Positions 2,396 through 63,578 of a DNA stretch of 64,000 nt are shown here, one piece after another. The translations under genes and the position numbers were made by a program. Source of the DNA: Arenicola marina (Eukaryota; Annelida; Polychaeta; Arenicolidae). Every line of letters starts with the position of its first letter. Position 1 is the stretch's first letter. The notes under the pieces are model-generated. The model was not told the origin of the DNA. It did no database searches and worked only from the letters and a program-made list of their open reading frames with translations. The stretch spans positions 62,001 to 126,000 of the forward strand of contig OZ025256.1 of assembly GCA_964019135.1 (NCBI GenBank), read 5' to 3'.

Positions 2396-4706
2396 TGTGG
2401 CGGGATCTATTTTATGTGATGGTAAATTTGTACTGTAGTTTAATGATCGCATACCATTGGTTCATTTTTTGTTTTCGTGACCATCATAGCAACGCGCATT
2501 TCATTGGCTCACTCTCATTACGCCAAGGGGATCATGGGATATTTGTGGGTTGCCCGTCACTTTTCTATTTGACTCGATGGGCGCCGGCAGCACGCCGGCT
2601 TTCAACTCGTTTTCTAATCCCTGTGTTGCAGGTATGTTTCATTTTATCATTCCTCGCTATTTTCATACTAACGCAATGTACTAATGTGATTTGTAGATAT
2701 TCCGCGTAATGTATCTAGTAACTTATATGCTGTAATTGGTTTAAATAGTAACTTGATAAGTTACACAGAGAACTTTTCTATTTGACTCGATGGGCGCCGG
2801 CAGCACGCCGGCCCTCAACTCGTTTTCTAATCCCTGTGTTGCAGGTTTACCCGCCTGGGGAAATAAAGTCTGTCAAATATTATCACCGCCGCCGAGTTGT
2901 GTTTTAAAAACCCAATTAAAGAACAGGGCGCACCACAGGCCCGCTACAAAATGGCGCAGTCGGCAGGATTGGGTTTTAAGACTCGGCGGTGAAACCGATT
3001 GACTTCAATTTCATGTTCACTGCCGGCGCGATGAACATCGGGCAGTAGGAACTGTCGACTTCATCGCGACGGAGGTGGACACCGAGCTTATCTGCAGTGA
3101 GCTTTTCATGTCCTCGAGGGCCAGTTTTCTCGAAGACTGGTAACACCTGGTTAACGGCCTTCAAGTGTCCTTAATTTCAACGAGCGGCCAACTCCACGCG
3201 CAAGTGCAGACCGCGCTTGTGCTCAACGGGGTTGTGGCCGCTGCGTCACTGGCTTCGGCCAGTTTTCTCCGAGACTCTTATCGTCGGTTTGTGGCAACGG
3301 CCACCTTCAAGTGTTAATGTCATCGTGCCGCAACTCCACGCGTAAGTGCACCGCGCTTGTGCTCAACGGGGTTGTGGCGGCTGACAACACTGCTTCGGCC
3401 TGTCTTCTCGGAGGCTGAATTCGTCGGGCTGTGTCTACAACGGGTTTGGCACGAGGCCGTCCAAGGCTTTATCGCGCTTCACCAAACATCAGACCGCACA
3501 GCAAGGTGAAGGCAATGTACAAGCATCGATCAACCATCTGTCAAGCATCAAACGGCGTTACCCCGGGTGAGACTTTATTAAGATAGGCCTAAGTTATACT
3601 GTTTAAGTGCACTGGTGATCACCCTGCTGGGGAACCAGATTCTCCCGTACGTCACGTATCGGAGAGTGATGCAGAAACGCGTCACGAAGTTTCTCCCGAT
3701 GACGTTTCTGATGGAGCCACTCAGATGTCGCGACTCTCGTCCGCCACTGTTGACGCCAATTCGGTGACCAGTGATGAGGATAGAGAGAACGCCGCTGATG
3801 GCCCATGTGATGTTGTAGACAGTGGTGGGGAGGCCGTGGATAGCGAAGGTGCTACTGTAGCCCCGCTAAGACGCTCGACCAGATTAAAAAGTCAACCCGC
3901 GTGGTTACAGCGTGGGGACTACCTTGTTTCGTCTATGGTTGAGACCCCGAAATCGTGGTTACCACGGTTTACGTCAGGGGGCACTGTCGGAAAAGTTTTA
4001 CACTTGTAACTGTTGTTTTTCATGAGCTTGCTTTGTTTGATTCTTTTCCAGTTTTGTCAGAGCTGGACGAGAGCAGATGTTTTTAACTTTAATCTCCGCT
4101 TACAGGGGCCCTAACCATGTCAAGGGACGACATGGATTTAACGCCGGGGAAGATGTGGCGGGATCTATTTTATGTGATGGTAAATTTGTACTGTAGTTTA
4201 ATGATCGCATACCATTGGTTCATTTTTTGTTTTCGTGACCATCATAGCAACGCGCATTTCATTGGCTCACTCTCATTACGCCAAGGGGATCATGGGATAT
4301 TTGTGGGTTGCCCGTCACTTTTCTATTTGACTCGATGGGCGCCGGCAGCACGCCGGCTTTCAACTCGTTTTCTAATCCCTGTGTTGCAGGTATGTTTCAT
4401 TTTATCATTCCTCGCTATTTTCATACTAACGCAATGTACTAATGTGATTTGTAGATATTCCGCGTAATGTATCTAGTAACTTATATGCTGTAATTGGTTT
4501 AAATAGTAACTTGATAAGTTACACAGAGAACTTTTCTATTTGACTCGATGGGCGCCGGCAGCACGCCGGCCCTCAACTCGTTTTCTAATCCCTGTGTTGC
4601 AGGTTTACCCGCCTGGGGAAATAAAGTCTGTCAAATATTATCACCGCCGCCGAGTTGTGTTTTAAAAACCCAATTAAAGAACAGGGCGCACCACAGGCCC
4701 GCTACA
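2396..4706 (+). mobile_element. Non-autonomous Ty3/gypsy-like LTR retroelement (fossil, young)
   Basis: Two 553-bp direct repeats (2396-2948 and 4154-4706) begin TGTGG and end CTACA, and look identical by eye, which implies a recent insertion. A TTAA duplication flanks the element (2392-2395 and 4707-4710). A primer-binding-site-like tggcgcagtcggcagg follows the 5' LTR at 2952, and a purine tract precedes the 3' LTR. Each LTR has an AATAAA and an internal duplication of about 70 bp. The internal region is only 1.2 kb. It holds a pol-tail-like stretch (3725-4009, containing RRSTRLKSQPAWLQRGDYL, typical of the end of Ty3-type Pol). The element is broken: most of gag-pol is absent, so any movement would have depended on a full-length relative. 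Confidence 0.85.
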
Positions 4707-22983: not shown

Positions 22984-25228
22984 GTTTATTTTTAACGGAA
23001 GGCATTCGAAAACTACGACGTCACAATGGCTGTTGTCATGGGCACGGGAGCATTCTTCTTAGCGCTGGCGCTGATTGTCAATGCGGTAGCCTTCATGGTG
23101 CCCTATTGGGTCGAGGCGTCTGGTACCAACGTCAACGTAGGCCAGGGCCTGTGGGGGGAATGCACCTGCAGCTGGCACGTCAGCGACTTTGCGAACTACT
23201 GGAAATCAGGCTCTGGTGAGCACCACTTTTTTGTGTAAAATTATCCACACATCTCGGTCATTAACTGGCACAGTTAGATGCATTGCCATTTGTCCACATG
23301 TTATTATTGGCTTAATGATAAGAAAAAATGGCTGGATTAAATTACGCAAGTGTTTTAATTTCTGACGATAAATTCGAGGTTAGCTTGTCAAAGGTCAACT
23401 TATACATTACTGCGGACCTTATATTGATTATTGCAAGCAGATATTTCCTGTCATTTTATTCCATGCAATGGAAGCTTAACATTCCTATTGAACAGCACTG
23501 TAACATATTATTCAAGTGCAATGGTAATTGAGGCCAAACAAATATGACAACATATAACAAAAGGTAGATGTTTGCCCTGACAGTTAATCGCAGAATTGTT
23601 TATCGCAGTTTTAAGGAAGCTGAACAGGCTATTGGTTGTACGCTATTGGTTGTTCACTGTTTCAGACTGGTTCAAGGCGGTCCCGGCCCTGTACGCTATT
23701 GGTTGTTCCCTGTTTCAGACTGATTCAAGGCGGTCCAGGCCCTGTACGCTATTGGTTGTTCACTGTTTCAGACTGGTTCAAGGCGGTCCCGGCCCTGTAC
23801 GCTATTGGCTGTTCCCTGTTTCAGACTGGTTCAAGGCGGTCCAGGCCCTGTACGCTATTGGTTGTTCCCTGTTTCAGACTGGTTCAAGGCGGTCCAGGCC
23901 CTGTACGCTATTGGGTGTTCCCTGTTTCAGACTGGTTCAAGGCGGTCCAGGCCCTGTACGCTATTGGTTGTTCCCTGTTTCAGACTGGTTCAAGGCGGTC
24001 CAGGCCCTGTACGCTATTGCTTGTTCCCTGTTTCAGACTGGTTCAAGGCGGTCCAGGCCCTGTACGCTATTGGTTGTTCACTGTTTCAGACTGGTTCAAG
24101 GCGGTCCCGGCCCTTTTACGCTATTGGTTGTTCCCTGTTTCAGACTGGTTCAAGGCGGTCCAGGCCCTGTACGCTATTGGTTGTTCCCTGTTTCAGACTG
24201 GTTCAAAGCGGTCCTGGCCCTGTACGCTATTGGTTGTTTCCTGTTTCAGACTGGTTCAAGGCGGTCCAGGCCCTGTACGCTATTGGTTGTTCCCTGTTTC
24301 AGACTGGTTCAAGGCGGTCCCGGCCCTGTACGCTATTGGTTGTTCCCTGTTTCAGACTGGTTCAAGGCGGTTCAGGCCCTGTACGCTATTGGCATAGCGC
24401 TCATCATTCTAGCTGTCCTCGTTCTGATGTTCGTCAGCTGCTGCCGGGAAAAGCAAGGAGGAACGGGAATCCTGGTTGTCGGCATTTTCCTCATCCTCGC
24501 CTGTGAGTAGTATTAACACCCGTCTCCCGCAGTCTGCCCTGTGTTCTGCCACTATACCGAATGCAAGTCCTAAAATAAAATCTCATAACATTAAGGGGGT
24601 CACCCCGCGGGCCTGGTAGTGGGTGGCGGATTCGGCTATTGTCGTGTATACCGGTGTGTGGTTCGAACCTCAACCGTGAACATGTGTTTGTACAGATGCA
24701 GATCTTTGATATTTGGATATCTTTATTATCATAAATATGGACTCTTGTTCTAAGTGATATTGCTCGACCCAAACAAATAGTATCATGCACATTGTTTCTA
24801 ATTGCACGGGTGGGCCGGGTCTTCCCTAGCTCAGTGGGTAAGGAGGGTGAGCTATAGATCCATAGCTCATGGGTCACGCCTACCATTAAATATCAATAAG
24901 CCGTTTCTTGGGCTCTAACATAGAGGATGGACTGGTTCACCCAGCCACAGTTACTTGTTTCCGGGAGATTTCGTGGTTCAGTTTAGCTTTGATGTACCCA
25001 ACCGAAAGCTGTAACTTCTTCATGGTTAAAATGGTTGATTTTGTTTTGTTTTCAGTTGCCGTTATAGCGTCGGCCATCATTGTGTTCGGTGTGATGGCGA
25101 ACAAGGAACAGCGATTAGGCTTGACCGGGGCGCCCAAGCTGGGCTGGGCCATGTGGCTGGGGGTGGGGGGCAGTGTCCTCCTCCTCGTCGCCGCCATCAT
25201 GCACATCAGCTGGGGACGACGTCACTAG
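22984..25228 (+). CDS. Claudin/PMP22-superfamily four-pass membrane protein (paralog 1)
   Basis: CDS join 23026-23215, 24356-24502, 25056-25228 (169 aa), with probable 5'UTR from 22984. All introns are GT-AG and phase 1. Predicted topology: TM1 at residues 5-27; a first extracellular loop with W28 and GLW(41-43)-GE-C46-T-C48; DWF..VQALYAI leading into TM2 (about 74-91); TM3 (about 102-126); GWAMW leading into TM4 (about 143-162); short basic tail ending at the stop at 25226. W...GLW..C..C is the claudin/PMP22/EMP loop signature, but the cysteine spacing is C-x-C rather than the classical 8-10 residues, so it is probably not a true claudin. An epithelial junction or membrane-organising role is inference. 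The paralog at 31330-33481 shares intron phases, exon 2 length (147 nt) and loop motif. Intron 1 contains a 53-bp array copying the exon 2 acceptor. Confidence 0.87.
23622..24383 (+). repeat. 53-bp splice-acceptor minisatellite before claudin-like exon 2
   Basis: Fourteen tandem units, the last being genuine. Each contains ttgttccctgtttcag (polypyrimidine tract plus AG) followed by 35 bp matching the start of exon 2 (actggttcaaggcggt...). The real acceptor is 24354-24355. The unit is 53 bp, so every third upstream acceptor is in frame. All three forward frames are open through most of the array. Divergence between units is only a few percent by eye. Confidence 0.95.
24600..24700 (+). repeat. 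tRNA-derived SINE fragment in intron 2
   Basis: A tRNA-like head (caccccgcgggcctggtagtg...ggattcggctattgtcgtg) precedes the B-box ggttcgaacctc at 24660. A head with the same ggctattgtc segment occurs at 45803-45845. Confidence 0.45.
24822..24890 (+). repeat. tRNA-like SINE fragment in intron 2
   Basis: An A-box-like tagctcagtgggtaagg at 24828-24844 is followed by a poor B-box (gggtcacgccta). It is consistent with a decayed SINE and not with a functional tRNA. Confidence 0.35.
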
Positions 25229-30950: not shown

Positions 30951-31312
30951 ATTGGGTGTTCAGACCACTGATCGATGTTCAGATTACGGTTCGATGTTTA
31001 GACCACTCTTTGGTGTTCAGACCACTGTTCGGTGTTCAGCCACTGTTCGGTGTTCAGACCACTGTTCGGTGTTCAAACCACGGTTCGATGTTCAGACCAC
31101 TCTTTGGTGTTCAGACCACTGTTCGGTGTTCAGACCACTGTTCGGTGTTCAGACCACTGTTCGGTGTTCAAACCACTGTACGTTGTCCAGACCACTGTTC
31201 GGTGTTCAGACCACTGCTCGGTGTTCAGACCACTGCTCGTTGCCCAGACCACCGTTCGGTGTTCAAACCACTGTTCGGTGTTCAAACCACTGTTCGGTGT
31301 TCAGACCAGCGT
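30951..31312. repeat. 19-bp minisatellite after the stop of claudin-like paralog 2
   Basis: About 19 units of gttcggtgttcagaccact. The array ends about 18 bp from the stop codon of the minus-strand gene, whose immediate post-stop sequence (minus strand agaccgaactgcgg) resembles the unit core (caccgaacagtgg). Confidence 0.93.
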
Positions 31313-31329: not shown

Positions 31330-33481
31330 TTAGTAGCGCGGCTTGCTCTGGTGGATGTGCATGATGGCCGTGACGAGGCAGACGATGGCGCCGGCCACCC
31401 CCGTCCACAGGGCCCAGCCCAGCTGGGGGGTCCCCTCCAGCTGCAGGCCCCAGCGGTCAGCCCCGTAGGCCCCGAACAGTATGATGGCCACTGCGATACA
31501 GATGGCTGAAAGACACACCGGAAGAAGCAGAGGTCAGTGGCATGGGAGGCACGGACGACGTACATGGACATCAAAAAACGTTACACACATCAATAGTCAG
31601 TGTGTGGTTAGTCCCACTACGGGGGGGGGGGGGCAAGGGGGGGGGGATCATGTTCCCAGATCACGAAGAAAAAAATTCTTTATTCACAGATCACGATGAA
31701 TTAAAAGAAGAACTTTCCGCATACAATGGAAGGGCGGATACATGATACTCACTTAACGATTTCCGGATTCACGGTTATTTAATATGAAAATTCACAGTTC
31801 ACGATTAATGAAAATCCTTGATCACGACGGGTGGCTAATACCGCCCAGCTCACGAAGAATTATGTTCCTCATTCCCAGTTCCCGGTAAATTGAAAAGCCC
31901 ACTGAAACATTCCTGCCCCCCCCCCCAACCCCTTATATATGGCTCAGCGTCAATAATGCTTCGTACATGTACAGCCTTTTACTCATGCAGTAAGGGCCTA
32001 AATATATAATTTCCCTTTTACATGGGGACGTTAGATAAAAGTTTGTCTTATCTCTTATCTTATCTTAAGATATTGAACCTGTTTATCGGAGGAACAACCG
32101 CTGTATGAGTGACCTTAGAGACGGTGAGTAAACATACCGGCCAGCGCGAGGAGGATGCCTGCCACCAGCATGGCGGACCCGGTCTTCTTGTCCGTGCAGC
32201 AACAGATGACGAAGACGATGATGACGGAGATGATGATCAACCCGACAGCGATGGTGTACAACCCTTGAGAGGCGCGGAACCAGTCTGTAAGCAGAGACCG
32301 GGCACGAGGTTCTTTTTTGATCGATTTTTTTTTTCAAATATTGAAAAAAAATTTTGTACCTTCAAACATTTAATTTTTTTTCTTCAAGCATTTAATTTTA
32401 TTTAATACGCTGGAAAACGAAATACATCAGTGAGGTCACAGCTGTACATGTGTGATTTTATACTCTACAGCTACCATTGCGTGCTTCCTGTGCGGATGGT
32501 TTAACCTCATGTCTTTATATCAGTGGTGATCAATTGTTATATGCTATAATTGGATGGTAATGTTAATTGAATTGAACAGTTGTCAGATCGTGGGCGAAGG
32601 GTGAGGATGTCTCCAGGGCATTTATCCCTTCCCACATTCCCTAGCACTCCGTGGGGTCGTTCATTACAGACATGTATCCCTTTCCACTGTCCCTAGCACT
32701 CCGTGGGGTCGTTCATTACACACATTTATCCCTTCCAACTGTCCCTAGCACTCCGTGGGGTCGTTCATTACACACAGTTATCCTTTCCAACTGTCCCTAG
32801 CACTCCGTGGGGTCGTTCATTACAGACATTTATCCCTTCCCACTGTCCCTAGCACTTCGTGGGGGTCATTCATTACACACATGTATCCCTTCCCAATGTC
32901 CCTAGTACTCCGTGTGGTCGTTCATTACACACATGTATCCCTTCCCACTGTCCCTAGCACTCCGTGGGGGTCATTCATTACACACATGTATCCCTTCCCA
33001 CTGACCCTAGTACTCCGTGTGGTCGTTCATTACACACATGTATCCCTTCCCACTGTCCCTAGCACTCCGTGGGGGTCGTTCATTACAGACATTTATCCCT
33101 TCCCACTGTCCCTAGCACTCCGTGGGGTCGTTCATTACACACATTTATCCCTTCCAACTGACCCTAGTACTCCGTGTGGTCGTTCATTACACACATGTAT
33201 CCCTTCCCACTGTCCCTAGCACTCCGTGGGGTCATGCATTACACACGTTCCTACCTGGTAAGTTATCATTGCCGCCGTCGAGGTTCCAGGTGCACGTGCA
33301 CCGGCCCCAGAGGCCCCAGTTGTTCTCCTTGAAGATGGCCCAGTATGGAGCCATCAGCGCTAGAATGTTGATGGAGAGGGACAGCGACAGCAGGAACGAG
33401 TTGGTGCCTATGATGATCGCCATGGCAACAGCCAATGCCGCGCCCCCACACGGTCGTCAAAGGAACCACGTTCGATGGTGT
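31330..33481 (-). CDS. Claudin/PMP22-superfamily four-pass membrane protein (paralog 2)
   Basis: CDS complement of join 33423-33255, 32284-32138, 31505-31330 (163 aa, stop included in coordinates). The 5'UTR probably begins at 33481 after an acceptor (tttcattacag). Introns are GT-AG and phase 1, and exon 2 is 147 nt, as in the paralog at 22984-25228. TM1 is followed by APYW28, then GLW(37-39)-GR-C42-T-C44, DWFRASQGLYTI into TM2, a CCC-DKK turn, TM3, GWALW into TM4, and a short basic tail ending KPRY. I chose the ATG at 33423 because it gives exactly 28 residues to the conserved W, as in the paralog. A 12-nt extension upstream would start on TTG. The genes converge, about 6.1 kb stop to stop, and probably arose by local duplication with inversion. 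Junction or membrane function is inferred from fold only. Confidence 0.87.
31617..31935 (-). repeat. Repeat family C, copy 2, in intron 2 of paralog 2
   Basis: Reverse-complement relative of 19393-19735 with landmarks gttcccagatcacgaag, ttccggattcacggttattt, cattcccagttcccgg and aaaagccc. It is framed by a G-run on the left and a C-run on the right and lies wholly inside an intron. Confidence 0.75.
32634..33245. repeat. 52-bp minisatellite abutting the exon 1 donor of paralog 2
   Basis: About 11 to 12 units with landmarks cactccgtggggtcgttcat, tacacacatgtatcccttcc and cactgtccctag. The array begins about 9 bp into intron 1 of the minus-strand gene (donor at 33254-33253). The nearest unit shares gtgtgtaatg with the intron start. 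Confidence 0.93.
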
Positions 33482-51025: not shown

Positions 51026-51360
51026 TGGGGCAGAATTACTGTGCCAGCCGTTCAGGTGTCGTTGCAATTCGAGTATACTAAGGAAGAGNNNNNNNNNNNN
51101 NNNNNNNNNNNNNNNNNNNNNNNNNNNNNNNNNNNNNNNNNNNNNNNNNNNNNNNNNNNNNNNNNNNNNNNNNNNNNNNNNNNNNNNNNNNNNNNNNNNN
51201 NNNNNNNNNNNNNNNNNNNNNNNNNNNNNNNNNNNNNNNNNNNNNNNNNNNNNNNNNNNNNNNNNNNNNNNNNNNNNNNNNNNNNNNNCGGTGAGGATGG
51301 GGCAGAATTACTGTGCCAGCCGTTCAGGTGTCGTTGCAATTCGAGTATACTAAGGAAGAG
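51017..51360. other. Assembly gap (200 N) flanked by a 72-bp duplication
   Basis: Ns occupy 51089-51288. The 72 bases before the gap (51017-51088, beginning cggtgaggatggggcag) are repeated exactly after it (51289-51360). The round gap size and identical flanks suggest unmerged contig ends. Confidence 0.95.
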
Positions 51361-54617: not shown

Positions 54618-57600
54618 ATGCAGTCCAGCCATGGTCACGTGGACGACCTGGCGACGCTGGCCACGCTGGACGAGGCGTCAATGCTAAAAGAAATCAAGAG
54701 CAGATACGAAAATGACTTGATTTATGTAAGTATACTCGCACTCGCTTGGATTATTGCATATTTGCTGGTAATTTGTTTTGGTGTATACATCTTATCTACA
54801 TACCGACGTTAAATAAAACGTTATCTTATCTTATTTTGTGTGAGTAGTTGTTATGTATGTGTACCTGCGAATGATATCCATGTGATATATCAGTGATAAT
54901 CCTATCTCACATCCTCTTATCTTACATTAAACCAATGATAACCATATCATACCCTGTAATACACCGGTGTTACTTATATATCATTTACTGTGATACATCA
55001 GCGACACTCATATACTGCATTCTGTCATAAACCAGTGGTTATAATAGGTTACATTATGTGATACATCAATAATAATAGTGTACTACATCCTGTGGTAAAT
55101 CACTGATAATAACATACTGCATTCTGCGATAAATCGGTGCTAATAATAAAATACACCCTGTAATAAGCCGGTAATAATAAACACGGCATCCTGTGATAAA
55201 CCAGTGCTATAATAGTATACTTCTGTGATAAATGAGTGATAATAATATGCTATACATGCTGTGATAAATGAGTGATAATTATATGCTATACATGCTGTGA
55301 TAAATCAGTGATAATAATATGCTATACATGCTGTGATAAATGAGTGATAATAATATGCTATACATGCTGTGATAAATCAATGTTAACAATATACTACATG
55401 CTGTGATAAATCAATGTTAATATATTACATGCTGTGATAAATCAATGTTAACAATATACTACATGCTGTGATAAATCAATGTTAACAATATAATACATGC
55501 TGTGATAAATCAATGTTAACAATATACTACATGCTGTCATAATCAATGTTAACAATACACTACATGCTGTGATAAATCAATGTTAACAATATACTGCATG
55601 CTGTGATAACACAAAAATACATTGCATGCTGCGATAAACAAAATATCTCAACGGAATTGATAAGGGGGTACAATATTCATTATATAGAGAGTGGACGTTA
55701 TGTACAATCACTGGACGTTATGTACAATAACTGGACGTTACGTTCAATCACTGGACGGTATGTACAATCACTGGACGTTATGTATAATTACTGGACGTTA
55801 TGTTAAATCACTAGACGTTATGCACAATCACTGGACGTTATGTACAATCACTGAATGTTATGTACAATCAATGAACATTATGTACAATCAATGGACGTTA
55901 TGTTCAATCACTGAACGTTATGTACAATCACTTGACATTATATACAATCACTAGACGTTATGTACAATCACTGGACGTTATGTTAAGTCACTGGACGTTA
56001 TGTTAAGTCATTGGACGTTATGTTAAGTCACTGGACGTTATGTACAATCACTGCCCGTTATGTTCAATCACTGGACGTTATGTTCAATCACTGGACGTTA
56101 TGTACAATCACTGGACGTTATGTACATTTACTGGACGTTATGTACAATCACTGGACGTTATGTACAATCACTGGACGTTGTGTACAATCACTGGACGTTA
56201 TGTACAATCACTGGACGTTATGTACAATCACTGGACGTTATGTACAATCACTGGACGTTATGTACAATCACTGGACGTTATGTACCATCACTGGACGTTA
56301 TCTGCAACAACAGTGGAAATTATCTGCAAACACAATAGGATAATGTGACTAATCAGCATACAGATTGGGTATTAACTGCAGCCGCACTTAAACAACATGA
56401 CACAATATCTATCAAGTTCATCAATATTTAGGTGTAATTTGACTGATTTTTGTTGGTTCTGAATTGTTTTCAGACGTACATCGGTGATATATTGGTTGCT
56501 GTCAACCCCTACAAGACGCTGACAATATACGGCCCCGAGGTGAGTTCATCTCCTGCCCCGCCTCCCGTAGTTAGGTCCGTTGCTACGGTAACACGAGAAT
56601 TAGCTTTTAACATCACGTCTGTTTTTGCCCTGATATGACTGTCAGTGAAAAGAAGACCTTGTGTTGATACGTGACCTTGCGTTGATGTGCGACCTTGCGT
56701 TGATATGTGACCTTGCGTTGAGAAGTTAACCTTGTGTTAATATATAATCCATTTGCCTCCAAACTCGTGACGGTTCGGTCCTCTGTCCGTCCTTTCATCG
56801 GCCTCAGGTTTCCATTCGCCGTGTGGCGTTTCCATTACTAACATACGAACTCTAGCGTATTCTGGGGTCGTGTTATGTGTCTGTATTACAGCCTACGATA
56901 CCAATGTTGTCTTCATACATATATATAGACCATTTAATCAACAGAACAGACGCATATCTCTTTTTACAATATCATGAAATAATTATCATCAAATGTAAAA
57001 CGTATCTTGATTTCCTCTCCTAATGGATGTTTAATTAATCAGTTTGAATGACACCCACACACCTGTCATCAACTTTGAGTGGAATTACTCTTCGTCCCAT
57101 ACGTCCCTGTCATCTAAAACACACCTGCTTCAGCCAACGCAGTCCTGTAGAAGATGACCTTGCAGATATTATCACGGAGTCACATAGTCGAGTCGAGTGC
57201 TTAGTGTGCGCCGCTGGGCCAGCCCAAGCGGCCAGGGCGTGGTCCAAATCCCACCTGTGCCAGCTGTACAATCATTGTTCACTGTCTGTACCCTGGACTC
57301 CCCAGTTCGGCCTGCTGTACACTCAATGTTCACTGTCTGTACCCTCGACTCGCCAGTTCGGCCTGCTGTACACTCAATGGTCACTATCTGTACCCTCGAC
57401 TCTCCAGTTCGGCCTGCTGTACACTCAATGTTCACTGTTTGTACCCTCGACTCCCCAGTTCGGCCAGCTGTACACTTAATGTTCACTGTATGTACCCTGG
57501 ACTCCCCAGTTCGGCCTGCTGTACACTTAATGTTTACTCTCTGTAGCCTCGACTCTCCAGTTCGGCCAGCTGTACACTCAATGTTCACTGTATGTAGCCT

Positions 57601-60600
57601 CGACTCCCCAGTTCGGCCTGCTGTACACTCAATGTTCACTGTCTGTACCCTCGACTTCCCAGTTCGGCCAGCTGTACACTCAATGTTCACTATATGTACC
57701 CTGGACTCTCTGATTCGGCCTGCTGTACACTCAATGTTCACTCTCTGTACCCTGGACTCTCCAGTTCGGCCTGCTGTACACTCAATGTTCACTGTCTGTA
57801 CCCTGGACTCCCCAGTTCGGCCTGCTGTACACTCAATGGTCACTATCTGTACCCTCGACTCTCCAGTTCGGCCTGCTGTACACTCAATGTTCATTGTTTG
57901 TACCCTCGACTCCCCAGTTCGGCCAGCTGTACACTCAATGCTCACTGTATGTACCCTGGACTCCCCAGTTCGGCCTGCTGTACACTTAATGTTTACTCTC
58001 TGTAGCCTCGACTCTCCAGGTCGGCCAGCTGTACACTCAATGTTCACTGTATGTACCCTCGACTCCCCAGTTCGGCCTGCTGTACACTCAATGTTCACTT
58101 TATGTACCCTGGACTCCCCAGTTCGGCTAGCTGTACACTCAATGTTCACTATCTGGATCCTGGACTCTCTGATTCGGCCTGCTGTACGCTCAATGTTCAC
58201 TCTCTGTACCCTGGACTCTCCAGTTCGACCTGCTGTACACTCAATGTTCACTGTCTGTACCCGGGACTCCCCCGTTTGGCCTGCTGTACACTCAATGTTC
58301 ACTGTCTGTACCCCCGACTCCCCAGTTCGGCCTGTTGTAGTCTCAATGTTCACTGTCTGTACCTTGGACTCCCCAGATCGACCTGCTGTACACTCAATGT
58401 TCACTGTCTGTACCCTCGCATCCCCAGATGGGCCTGCTGTACACTCAATGTTCACTGTCTGTACCCTCGAATCTCCAGTTCGGCCTGCTGTACACTCAAT
58501 GTTCACTGTCTGTACCCTGGACTCCTCAGTTCGGCCTGCTGTACACTCAATGTTCACTCTCTGTACCCTGGACTCCCCAGTTCGGCCTGCTGTACACTCA
58601 ATGTTCACTGTCTGTACCCTCGAATCCCCAGTTCGGCCTGTTGTGCACTCAATGTTCACTGTCTGTACCCTCGCATCCCCAGATGGGCCTGCTGTACACT
58701 CAATGTTCACTGTCTGTACCCTCGAATCCCCAGTTCGGCCTGCTGTGCACTCAATGTTCACTGTCTGTACCCTCGCATCCCCAGATGGGCCTGCTGTACA
58801 CTCAATGTTCACTGTCTGTACCCTCGAATCCCCAGTTCGGCCTGCTGTGCACTCAATGTTCACTGTCTGTACCCTCGAATCCCCAGTTCGGCCTGTTGTG
58901 CACTCAATGTTCACTGTCTGTACCCTCGCATCCCCAGATGGGCCTGCTGTACACTCAATGTTCACTGTCTGTACCCTCGAATCCCCAGTTCGGCCTGCTG
59001 TGCACTCAATGTTCACTGTCTGTACCCTCGCATCCCCAGATGGGCCTGCTGTACACTCAATGTTCACTGTCTGTACCCTCGAATCCCCAGTTCGGCCTGC
59101 TGTGCACTCAATGTTCACTGTCTGTACCCTCGCATCCCCAGATGGGCCTGCTGTACACTCAATGTTCACTGTCTGTGCCCTCGACTCCCCAGTTCGGCCT
59201 GCTGTACACTCAATGTTCACTGTCTGTACCCTGGACTCCCCAGTTCGGTCTGCTGTACACTCAATGCTCACTGTCTGTGCCCTCGACTCCTCAGTTCGGC
59301 CTGCTGTACACTCAATGTTCACTGTCTGTACCCTGGACTCCTCAGTTCGGCCTACTGTACACTCAATGTTCACTCTCTGTACCCTGGACTCCCCAGTTCG
59401 GCCAGCTGTGCACTCAATGTTCACTGTCTGTACCCTCGAATCCCCAGTTCGGCCTGCTGTGCACTCAATGTTTACTGTCTGTACCCTCGTATGCCCAGAT
59501 GGGCCTGCTGTACACTCAATGTTCACTGTCTGTACCCTCGAATCCCCAGTTCGGCCTGCTGTGCACTCGATGTTCACTGTCTGTACCCGGGACTCCCCCG
59601 TTCGGCCTGCTGTACACTCAATGTTCACTGTCTGTGCCCTCGACTCCTCAGTTCGGCCTGCTGTGCACCCAATGTTTACTGTCTGTACCCTGGACTCCTC
59701 AGTTCGGGCTGCTGTACACTCAATGTTCACTCTCTGTACCCTGGACTCCCCAGTTCGGCCTGCTGTAACTCAATGTTCACTGTCTGTACCCTCGAATCCC
59801 CAGTTCGGCCTGCTGTGCACTTAATGTTCACTGTCTGTACCCTCGAATCCCCAGATGGGCCTGCTGTACACTCAATGTTCGCTGTCCGTACCCTCGTATC
59901 CGCAGATGGGCCTGCTGTACACTCAATGTTCACTCTCTGTACCCTCGAATCCCCAGATGGGCCTGCTGTACACTCAATGTTCACTGTCCGTACCCTCGAC
60001 TCTCCAGTTCGGCCAGCTGTACACTCAATGTTCCCTGTCTGTACCCTCGAATCCCCAGATGGGCCTGCTGTGCACTCAATGTTCACTGTCTCTACCCTCG
60101 AATCCCCAGTTCGGCCTGCTGTACACTCAATGTTCACTCTCTGTACCCTCGAATCCCCAGATTGGCCTGCTGTACACTGACGTGAAGGAGAAGTCGAGTC
60201 ACCCTCCCCATGTCTACGCCATCTCAGACAACGTCTACCAGACCATGCGTCGGACGGGAGTGGATCAGTCCTGCGTCGTCAGCGGCGAGTCTGGAGCAGG
60301 TGGGTCAGTGTGGTCTCCGGAGCAGGTCAGTCAGCGGCGAGTCTGAAGCAGGTGGGTCAGTGTGGTGTCCGGAGCAGGTGGGTCAGTGTGGAGTCCGGAG
60401 CAGGTGGGTCAGTGTGGTGTCAGGAGCAGGGGGGTCAGTATGGTGTCCGGATCAGGTGGGTCAGTGTGGAGTCCGGAGCAGGTGGGTCAGTGTGGAGTCC
60501 GGAGCAGGTGGGTCAGTGTGGATCCCGGAGCAAGTGGGTCAGTGTGGTGTGCGGACCAGGTGGGTCAGTGTGGAGTCTGGAGCAGGTGGGTCAGTGTGGT

Positions 60601-63578
60601 GTCCGGAGCAGGTCAGTCAGCGGCGAGTCTGGAGCAGGTGGGGCAGTGTGGTGTCCGTAGCAGGTCAGTCAGTGTGGAGTGCGGAGCAGATGGGTCAGTG
60701 TGGTGTCCGGAGCAGGTCAGTCAGCGGCGAGTCTGGAGCAGGTGGGTCAGTGTGGAGTCTGGAGCAGGTGGGTCAGTGTGGTGTCCGGAGCAGGTCAGTC
60801 AGCGGCGAGTCTGGAGCAGGTGGGTCAGTGTGGAGTCTGGAGCGGGTGGGTCAGTGTGCAGTCCGGAGCAGGTGGGTCAGTGTGGGGTCCGGAGCAGGTG
60901 GGTCAGTGTGGAGTCCGGAGCAGGTGGGTCAGTATGGTGTCCGGAGCAGGTGGGTCAGAGTGCAGTCCGGAGCAGGTGGGTCAGTGTGGAGTCCAGAGCA
61001 GTAGGGTCAGAGTGCAGTCCGGAGCAGGTGGGTCAGTATGGTGTCCGGAGCAGGTGGGTCAGAGTGCAGTCCGGAGCAGGTGGGTCAGTGTGGAGTCCAG
61101 AACAGGTGGGTCAGAGTGTAGTCCGAAGCAGGTGGGTCAGTGTGGTGTCCGGAGCAGGTGGGTCAGAGTGCAGTCCGGAGCAGGTGAGTCAGTGTGGAGT
61201 CCGGAGCAGGTGGGTCAGTGTATAGTCCGGAGCAGGTGAGTCAGTGTGGAGTCCGGAGCAGGTGGGTCAGTGTATAGTCCGGAGCAGGTGAGTCAGTGTG
61301 GAGTCCGGAGCAGGTGGGTCAGAGTGCAGTCCGTGTATAGTCCGGAGCAGGTGGGTCAGTGTGGAGTCTGGAGCAGGTGGGTCAGTGTATAGTCCGGAGC
61401 AGGTGGGTCAGTGTGGTGTCCGGAGCATGTGGGTCAGTGTGGTGGCTGGAGCAAATGGGTCAGTGTGGAATCCGAAGCACTTTGAAGTTCCATTACCTGC
61501 TAACTTGTCTTGTTTTTTCAGGTAAAACGGAAACTACGAAGTTGATGGTCCAGCACATTGCTCAGCTTTGTAAGGATGAGTCTTCAGACCTGCATGACCG
61601 TATTGTACAGGTAAATGTGTGCTTCTGTTTGTAGAAGTAGAGCGTAAGGGGGGGGGGGGCTGCAATAGCGAAGTGCTTCAAAGTACTGAAGTTGACCTAA
61701 GACATTAGAGCACGAACTTCTGTGCCATGTATGCTATGACCTTCTGGGTATGACCTTCACTTAAACCTTGAGCTTTGACCCTGGCTATCGTGGAAGTTAA
61801 CCCCCCTCTGGTCCTGGAGGCTTTCTTTGAGGTGCGCGGGGTAACCCTTAGATTGACCTTGACGTTCACACCTGGTTGCCCCTCTTTTGCTGAGGCTCGA
61901 ATGGTGATATTGTTCGTTTGACCTTGACCTTTGTCCGTGGTTGTTTTGCAGATCAACCCCCTCTTAGAGGCGTTCGGTAACGCTCGCACTGTGATAAACA
62001 ACAACAGCAGTCGATTCGGCAAGTTCATCCAACTACTGTTTGACACGGAGGGACGGATCCTCGGCGGTGAGTCGGCCATTGTTCGTGGCATGAATATGTC
62101 TAGGCCCCGGATGTCGGATAGTACTTCTTCCGGGTTTGTATTATTCCAGTTCAAGTAGCGTAATGTACATATTATTCCGTTTTCCAGTTTCGAGTGGCCT
62201 AGCTTTTTAAAATTAAATTAAAGTTAAATTTTATAAATTTCGCCCCAAAAAGTGTGGGCCGGGACCCGGACCCGGATCCCCACCCCCGCTGGACACGCCC
62301 CTGGAAAGTGTGATATGAAACACAGCTTTGAGTTGCTTTGATATTAAGAAAATGATCATATATCACCATAAATGACAAAAGTGCATATCCAAAAAAAAAT
62401 CGCGAACCCACCTTTTAACGTTCAGCGATTTTGTGAATTGAACAACTGCTTGTTGCAATCTGCTTTTGCTTACAAAAAAAAAGATTTTATTCAACGTCGT
62501 TATTAAAAGTAAATAAACAGCATTAGCATTTAAACAAGTTCTAAGAACCGTCGTGCTGGACCTAAATCTACCATGCTCGTTTTCAGCTCAGCTGACGGAA
62601 TATTTGCTAGAGAAATCTCGCGTGGTTTCACAAGGACCCGGCGAGAGGAGTTTCCACATATTTTACTACATGTTCGCTGGACTCAGCGAGACACAGCTAA
62701 AGGCCAACCTGCTCTACCAGCCCGAAAAACACAGGTTTGGAATATATCACTCTCAAATATTGTGTAGTGGTTAGCGCACTAGACCGAAGACCAATATGTC
62801 CTGGGGGTCTCCCTGGTGTAGTTATTTAGCGCGCTACACCTCAGATCAATAGATCCTGGCAGCCTCCCTGGTGTAGTGGTTAGCGCACTAGACCGCACAC
62901 CAATACGGCGTATTGTCCTCTGTGCTAGTACTTAAATATAACACATTAATACATTATTTGCTTATATCCGATTAGTTAATACACTTGTTCATACGTGTAT
63001 TTAGGTTAAACTAGTACAGTGCGTGTTCATATTAGGTAAATTATGACTATGTCGTTTAATGTCAGGCTAGTTTGTTTTCCACAATAGTACACTAACCGCA
63101 TACATCTTTGCATTTTATGCAGTCCAAATCACAAGCAACTGCACACACCAATTATCACTAACCCATCACAGCCGGTTTTTTTTTTCGGGTGGGGAGTGGC
63201 GAGAGGAGTACGGTTCTACTTTCAAGGTCAGGGCCGGTGGCACAGCTTTAACAACATAAAATATATTTTTATTATGAATATTAATTAATTTGTTTCTTTG
63301 ACTCACCTCAGACATGACAATCTAGAGTAAATTGTTGAATACGCTCCTATCTGGTGGGGAATTTCAGTGCTGAATATTCTTACTGTCGTATATGTAACAC
63401 AAGAATCTGATTGCCATTAGCAGCCTGACCATGTTGTAATAAGTTGTCTTTGCTCGTCAGAATCTTACAACCCGGGGATGGGTCCTCGGTGTATCAGTCG
63501 GACGAGGAGTGGAACCACAACAAGACGATGTGGGCGAGACTTCACGAGATCATGAAGACCGTCGGCTTCAATAAACAA
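54618..63578 (+). CDS. Unconventional myosin, class III-like: N-terminal motor, partial
   Basis: Seven exons join in frame: 54618-54725, 56474-56539, 60161-60299, 61522-61610, 61952-62066, 62587-62734, 63461-63578 (261 codons, continuing past the window). All introns are GT-AG. It encodes an actin-based ATPase motor. Motifs in order: HVDDLATL...RYENDLIY (1-36); [16 protein letters not shown] (37-52); [16 protein letters not shown]-loop GESGAGKT (100-107, split by intron 3); [10 protein letters not shown]; switch [10 protein letters not shown] (150-158); [27 protein letters not shown]. Spacing of VDDLA and of the segment between IYGPE and PPH fits metazoan MYO3 best, but classes other than III are not excluded. 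The ATG has an in-frame TAA 15 nt upstream (54603), so no kinase domain is fused in this transcript form. Exon 3 is flanked by arrays copied from its own splice sites. Confidence 0.9.
54880..55615. repeat. ~34-bp minisatellite in myosin intron 1, partly degenerate
   Basis: Units with core ctgtgataaatcaatgttaa and atatactacatg are nearly identical from 55200 to 55610 and progressively diverged leftward to about 54880. Confidence 0.85.
55690..56310. repeat. 20-bp minisatellite in myosin intron 1
   Basis: About 31 units of exactly 20 bp (tatgtacaatcactggacgt) in near-perfect register. The array ends about 165 bp before exon 2. It has no resemblance to exon sequence. Confidence 0.95.
57180..57265 (+). 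repeat. tRNA-derived SINE S1 fragment in myosin intron 2
   Basis: The gcggccagggcgtggtccaa then atcccacctgtgcc segment matches the S1 B-box region at 46786. The fragment directly abuts the left end of the 51-bp array. Confidence 0.5.
57268..60180 (+). repeat. 51-bp splice-acceptor minisatellite before myosin exon 3
   Basis: About 57 units. Each contains ctgtaccctcgaatccccag (pyrimidine-rich tract plus AG) followed by ttcggcctgctgtacactca. The genuine exon 3 start is ccccag/attggcctgctgtacactga at 60161, so the unit spans the intron end plus about 20 bp of exon. A variant with ccccagatggg alternates in the middle (58420-59150), giving 102-bp dimers. The unit equals 17 codons, so frames stay open on both strands for hundreds of codons. 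Confidence 0.96.
60281..61482 (+). repeat. 26-bp splice-donor minisatellite after myosin exon 3
   Basis: About 45 units of gtccggagcag/gtgggtcagtgtgga type. The genuine exon 3 end and donor is gagtctggagcag/gtgggt (60299/60300). Several units (for example at 60328, 60610, 60721 and 60798) also copy agcggcgagtctggagcag, the DNA encoding part of the P-loop. Each unit carries a potential AG/GTGGGT donor. Confidence 0.96.
62762..62905 (+). repeat. Tandem half-tRNA units in myosin intron 6
   Basis: Two and a half copies (period about 55 bp) of tccctggtgtagtggttagc plus gcactagacc, which is a tRNA 5' half with an A-box but no B-box. It begins 27 bp after the exon 6 donor. Related to SINE S4 at 50525-50655. 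Confidence 0.6.

Follow-up and report, generated by a model that had tools for sequence, protein, structure and literature searches.

Tandem repeats of intron/exon boundaries, known as mirages, have been described in amphioxus; according to the accessible parts of the reports, they were found in the genes for Adh3, troponin C, the globins BflGb6 and BflGb9, and PGBD5, and regular splicing was reportedly undisturbed by them (PMC3087553, PMC3902484). In the clusters described in the first of these reports, as far as its text is available, the copy at the exon edge lies outside homogenisation, and intron birth by tandem duplication was proposed for the globin mirages (PMC3087553). In draft assemblies of amphioxus, a mirage and also other repeats have reportedly been misassembled (PMC3087553, PMC2632668). 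In humans, a 31-bp VNTR at the boundary between exon 13 and intron 13 of CBS has been tied, in the accessible text, to reduced enzyme activity (PMC1395315), and duplicated genes are described as having variable internal tandem repeats at exon-intron boundaries, which can alter splicing and create introns (PMC2812944, accessible part).

Our analysis of a 64,000-nt stretch of DNA, hereafter the window, revealed arrays at splice junctions which, judged by their sequence, look like boundary-spanning minisatellites of the amphioxus kind, and a large example of them. The units span an intron/exon boundary at the acceptor of exon 3 of a predicted myosin gene, at the donor of the same exon, and at an acceptor of a claudin-like gene (gene A). 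Their copies have splice signals like those of the true sites: at the exon 3 acceptor an AG in register is retained by 52 of the 56 upstream copies and lost in four, at its donor there are 37 CAG/GT decoys, and in gene A there are 13 decoys. From the available descriptions, the amphioxus mirages likewise have units that span the boundary, at both 3' and 5' boundaries, and splice signals in many, though not all, copies; with the myosin array they also share an edge copy that is spared from homogenisation. The reported units of the Adh3 mirage (10-72 bp) bracket the 51, 26 and 53 bp found here. However, the myosin acceptor array has 57 copies and the donor array about 46, far above the 3 to 6 reported for the BflGb6 mirage, and they lie at both ends of one exon of a myosin gene, whereas the mirages in the accessible reports are in other genes, of amphioxus. 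The literature searched, which does not extend to the founding Adh and troponin C papers, yielded no mirage in a myosin gene, no exon flanked by arrays on both sides and no comparably high copy number. The last two are possibly new here.

The human CBS VNTR, in its available description, resembles the arrays here in being a minisatellite at an exon-intron boundary. It is a single donor-side array. The human internal tandem repeats are short, with on average four 30-bp units, and half of them lie within coding exons; they are not long runs of copies of one junction like those found here (PMC2812944).

A predicted myosin exon between two arrays

The 5' part of a myosin gene was found on the + strand of the window. 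Its seven predicted coding exons (Table 1) join in phase into 261 residues upon translation of the spliced prediction. This product matches the Pfam family Myosin_head (E 4.3e-87), and its 225 residues from exon 2 onward match myosins in PDB (best E 1e-54, among the best 60 of 150 matches). The exon boundaries are predictions from consensus sites, phase and homology, and splice sites were compared by sequence, without a trained splice-site model. Exons 2 and 3 join in phase at the predicted acceptor, and the resulting IYGPE-IGLLYT stretch is free of gaps in the two alignments inspected, with human-type myosin-9 and myosin-VIIa chains. Both results agree with the earlier note on this DNA, which had placed the true acceptor at the same position.

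Table 1. Positions of the predicted myosin exons and of the arrays in or beside genes (numbered from the first nucleotide of the window).
Feature	Position	Strand	Basis
53-bp acceptor-derived array, gene A exon 2	23637-24392	+	TRF, decoy count, exon-side shuffle test
28-bp array; first unit includes the final 11 nt of the gene A CDS with its stop codon	25218-25581	+	TRF, exon-side test
52-bp array in gene B intron 1, starting at intron position +9	32619-33246	-	
Predicted myosin coding exon (first of seven)	54618-54725	+	
Predicted myosin exon 2, ending in IYGPE	56474-56539	+	Phase and homology
Acceptor-derived 51-bp array; 52 decoy acceptors and the true one	57259-60178	+	TRF, in-register cutting, shuffles
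Terminal 51-bp copy with the true exon 3 acceptor, junction 60160/60161	60128-60178	+	In-register copies, gap-free myosin alignment
Predicted myosin exon 3, 139 nt, IGLLYT to P-loop	60161-60299	+	Pfam, PDB alignment, phase
Donor-derived 26-bp array	60287-61479	+	TRF, CAG/GT count, exon-side shuffle test
Predicted myosin exon 4	61522-61610	+	Phase
Predicted myosin exon 5	61952-62066	+	
Predicted myosin exon 6	62587-62734	+	
Predicted myosin exon 7	63461-63578	+	

Myosin exon 3 is flanked by two arrays, each of which repeats one of the exon's own ends, and both ends of the exon are terminal copies of these arrays. TRF assigned to the acceptor array a period of 51, with 57.3 copies, 89% matches and 0% indels. 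When the register was set by the true junction, 57 copies were obtained between 57273 and 60178, preceded on the upstream side by a partial, decayed one, in accordance with the roughly 57 tandem copies counted before. Each unit consists of 33 nt of the intron end and 18 nt of the exon start. The earlier note had derived the unit from the 3' splice site of exon 3, which holds, and had given it about 20 exonic bp, for which 18 nt were measured. The decoy consensus (55 full-length decoys; one 50-nt copy was excluded) and the junction copy agree in 47 of 51 nucleotides, against a maximum of 28 of 51 among 20,000 mononucleotide shuffles, so that the similarity between unit and boundary is well above that in shuffled sequence, the comparison on which the note had made its derivation depend. 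The 18 exonic nt of the unit match the exon 3 start at 16 positions, and the best match elsewhere in the window is 12 of 18. The first 18 nt of exon 3 alone scored 15 against the TRF unit, as high as none of 1000 shuffles. The 39 nt that follow in the exon do not match that unit, with a score that 433 of 1000 shuffles also attain.

Twelve of the 52 AG decoys are identical to the true site over -20 to -1, and the remaining 40 have 1 to 3 differences. A yTnAy branch-point-like motif is found within -50 to -16 in 53 of the 57 copies, the true one included. Most of the 51-bp copies thus look like complete 3' splice sites, as far as sequence alone can indicate, and the near-identical decoy acceptors proposed in the note are credible.

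At the other end of the exon, exon 3 ends with GAGTCTGGAGCAG and intron 3 starts with GTGGGTCAGTGTG, and this 26-nt segment is repeated throughout the intron. The array has 38 CAG/GT sites, which are the true donor at 60299/60300 and the 37 decoys. The donor-site variants among them are CAGGTGGGT (29 sites), CAGGTCAGT (five), CAGGTGAGT (three) and CAGGTGGGG (one), of which CAGGTGAGT is closer than the others to the usual donor consensus. The exon-side bases at the donor match the unit with a score reached by none of 1000 shuffles. Intron 3 measures 1222 nt, of which the array occupies 1180; the last 42 nt are unrepeated and contain a CTAAC branch-point-like site and the acceptor. This second array was absent from the earlier note, which had treated the decoys at exon 3 as a one-off: the array it reported is there, and several junction-derived arrays are present in the window.

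Other arrays in the window

Tandem arrays, 24 in number after merging, make up 16,355 bp, or 25.6%, of the window (1-64000). They are merged TRF rows of roughly at least 100 bp and at least 2.7 copies, shorter or two-copy rows having been dropped.

Two claudin-like paralogues were identified. Gene A (PF00822, E 4.2e-10) is encoded by the + strand, and gene B (PF13903, E 2e-10) by the - strand. The unit of the 53-bp array in gene A has 16 intronic and 37 exonic nt, and the exon-side bases at the exon 2 acceptor match it with a score that none of 1000 shuffles reach. The true acceptor (24355/24356) lies in the terminal copy of the array. Five of the 13 decoys are identical to the true site over -16 to +16, and four of the 13 are open and in frame. 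The equivalent intron of gene B interrupts the coding sequence at the same phase and has no acceptor array, which indicates that the intron is older than the array of gene A. The 28-bp array of gene A lies at its stop-codon edge and indicates that a coding edge need not have a splice site for an array to arise from it.

The 52-bp array in gene B was considered as a fourth junction array and rejected. It contains no exon sequence: the exon-side score is 5, which 989 of 1000 shuffles reach, so it lies next to the donor without repeating it. Edge tests with segments that include array bases are not independent, and the test on exon-side bases only was decisive for this gene. Two arrays in myosin intron 1 showed no match to coding edges. 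A 19-bp array (30955-31308) starts about 20 nt past the stop codon of gene B.

Origin of the arrays and their position at exon edges

We consider that the junction arrays are neutral, recombining arrays of the mirage type and that splicing would take place at the innermost acceptor and donor, with a probability of about 0.78 on the features described here. A short segment straddling an exon edge, the seed, would have been tandemly duplicated; unequal exchange or conversion-like copying would then have lengthened the array and made its copies alike. Splicing would ignore the arrays, the true sites being the innermost pair, which defines the shortest exon. The arrays would be tolerated for this reason, as the exon between the innermost sites measures 139 nt, against 190 nt via the nearest acceptor decoy. 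They would be neutral intron filler, free to change in copy number, and only the edge copy would be kept unchanged, since it belongs to the coding sequence and contains the splice site that is used.

A different explanation is that some process at splice junctions actively directs arrays to the edges of exons. Six arrays were counted in known introns, a weak one in myosin intron 6 being left out, and three of them overlap a splice junction, for which random seeding (seeds placed in array-free introns, with overlap of exon edges allowed) gave P 0.034. With a 10-bp margin, four of the six do so (P 0.009). These counts would fit targeting, but they weaken to two of five (P 0.12) and, with the margin, three of five (P 0.033) when the 51-bp array that was given at the outset is left out. 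Moreover, the extra case under the 10-bp margin is the gene B array, without exon sequence, and the 28-bp array of gene A arises at a stop-codon edge, where nothing is spliced. The excess of arrays at exon edges is suggestive only, and targeting is in our opinion unlikely. Much of the overlap with boundaries is accounted for by random seeding, and by selection against arrays within exons combined with the shortness of the introns. Neutral seeding nevertheless explains the excess (P 0.034) only in part.

Decoy reading frames, turnover and remaining alternatives

Few decoys could yield an open reading frame. Only six of the 52 acceptor decoys are in frame and open, and these are the six nearest, at +51 to +306 nt, with the first exonic base at 60110, 60059, 60008, 59957, 59906 and 59855. 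The seventh is in frame and hits a stop. The other 45 are out of frame, at distances that are not a multiple of three, because a 1-nt deletion lies downstream of them in the copy at 59721-59770. None of the 37 donor decoys is in frame and open. The earlier note had expected that skipping to an upstream copy would often keep the frame; this is right for the nearest six acceptor decoys and wrong for most copies.

If the upstream acceptors were used appreciably, multiples of 17 residues would be added to the motor and a series of isoforms would result. The 52 AG decoys, with the 12 that equal the true site over -20 to -1, and the six open copies next to the exon would be consistent with this. But the frame is broken or a stop is met in 46 of the 52 acceptor decoys and in all 37 donor decoys, and a stop codon is present in just seven of the 55 full-length units read in the frame of exon 3, so that six consecutive open copies require no selection. 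Conservation is also equal on the two sides of the decoy junctions: its mean over the 55 full-length decoys is 0.93 at intronic and 0.94 at exonic positions. Furthermore, the insertion site lies in what we take to be the conserved myosin motor, near the nucleotide site, which counts against such isoforms. We regard appreciable use of the upstream acceptors as improbable.

A low-level leak from the six nearest decoys is slightly less improbable, though we still give it little chance. It is possible because these six are open and would enlarge exon 3 only to 190-445 nt. Myosin variants with 17n additional residues would then form a ladder that depends on the length of the allele and differs from one individual to another, perhaps also from tissue to tissue, and exon 3 would be a natural experiment in exon definition.

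The 51-bp array was also considered as coding sequence. Long open frames cross it in several frames and on both strands, and the positions of the unit are evenly conserved. This indicates that an open frame here is no evidence of translation, and the candidate was rejected. Purging of the decoys was rejected too: AG is kept in most upstream copies, and its positions are of average conservation (A 0.93, G 0.96 in the 55 decoys). The decoys thus appear to be neither purged nor maintained, with no sign of either in their sequence.

The copies do bear marks of turnover, as neutral, recombining arrays would. There are 44 distinct sequences among the 57 copies; one variant is present 6 times and another 7 times. 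Each of the first eleven copies resembles the copy nine units further along, with matches of 0.90-1.00, and these nine-unit block repeats are the mark of block duplication and of turnover by recombination. In the one haplotype covered here, they would also be an indirect sign of the length variation between alleles or somatic cells that is expected of an amphioxus mirage. The first codon of exon 3, ATT, is found in none of the 56 decoys, which have TTC (42), ATG (11) and GTC, TTT and ATC (one each). This indicates that the junction copy lies outside the homogenisation. Similarity to the junction declines weakly with distance (Spearman -0.32, P 0.017), among copies that are not independent.

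Intron birth by tandem duplication of the Rogers type, in which the arrays would be the segments that made introns 2 and 3, has been proposed for the globin mirages, in the accessible text of that report (PMC3087553). The AG/GT of the donor units and the large share of intron 3 that their array occupies would fit such a birth, but the acceptor units have no AG/GT at the junction, and the final part of intron 3, where the branch-point-like site and the acceptor lie, is unrepeated. An AG/GT unit supplying both intron ends was therefore not found. The gene A intron, moreover, is common to gene B, in which the acceptor array is lacking. Together these make intron birth very improbable. Least probable of all is that an error of assembly produced the array or its length, since, despite the 200-N gap at 51089-51288 in the window and the misassembled repeats reported from the accessible accounts of amphioxus drafts (PMC3087553, PMC2632668), the 57 copies comprise 44 distinct units, the flanks on both sides are unrepeated, and the window has 24 arrays. 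The 51-bp copy number itself may be wrong in the assembly or variable between alleles.

Under the neutral reading, dozens of copies of an exon edge can accumulate next to a gene, and these show no visible constraint. Arrays of near-identical splice sites pose the question of how the spliceosome picks among nearly equal options, and the rule that the shortest exon wins becomes directly testable in an exon that has arrays on both sides. If the leak were true, a ladder of 17n-residue myosin variants between individuals would be the consequence.

Searches of the whole window with Rfam (gathering threshold) and ARAGORN gave no matches. The weak array in myosin intron 6 is a 55-bp repeat of 2.6 copies (62762-62905), whose phrase gtgtagtggttagcgcactagaccg recalls, by eye, a tRNA-derived repeat; no tRNA was found there by ARAGORN. 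The 200 N form an assembly gap that adjoins a G-rich repeat. Two identical 300-nt direct repeats were found at 2395-2694 and 4153-4452, 1758 nt apart. An open frame between them (3593-4006) has an end that resembles, by eye, a retroelement polyprotein, and the two repeats perhaps belong to a recent LTR-type element.
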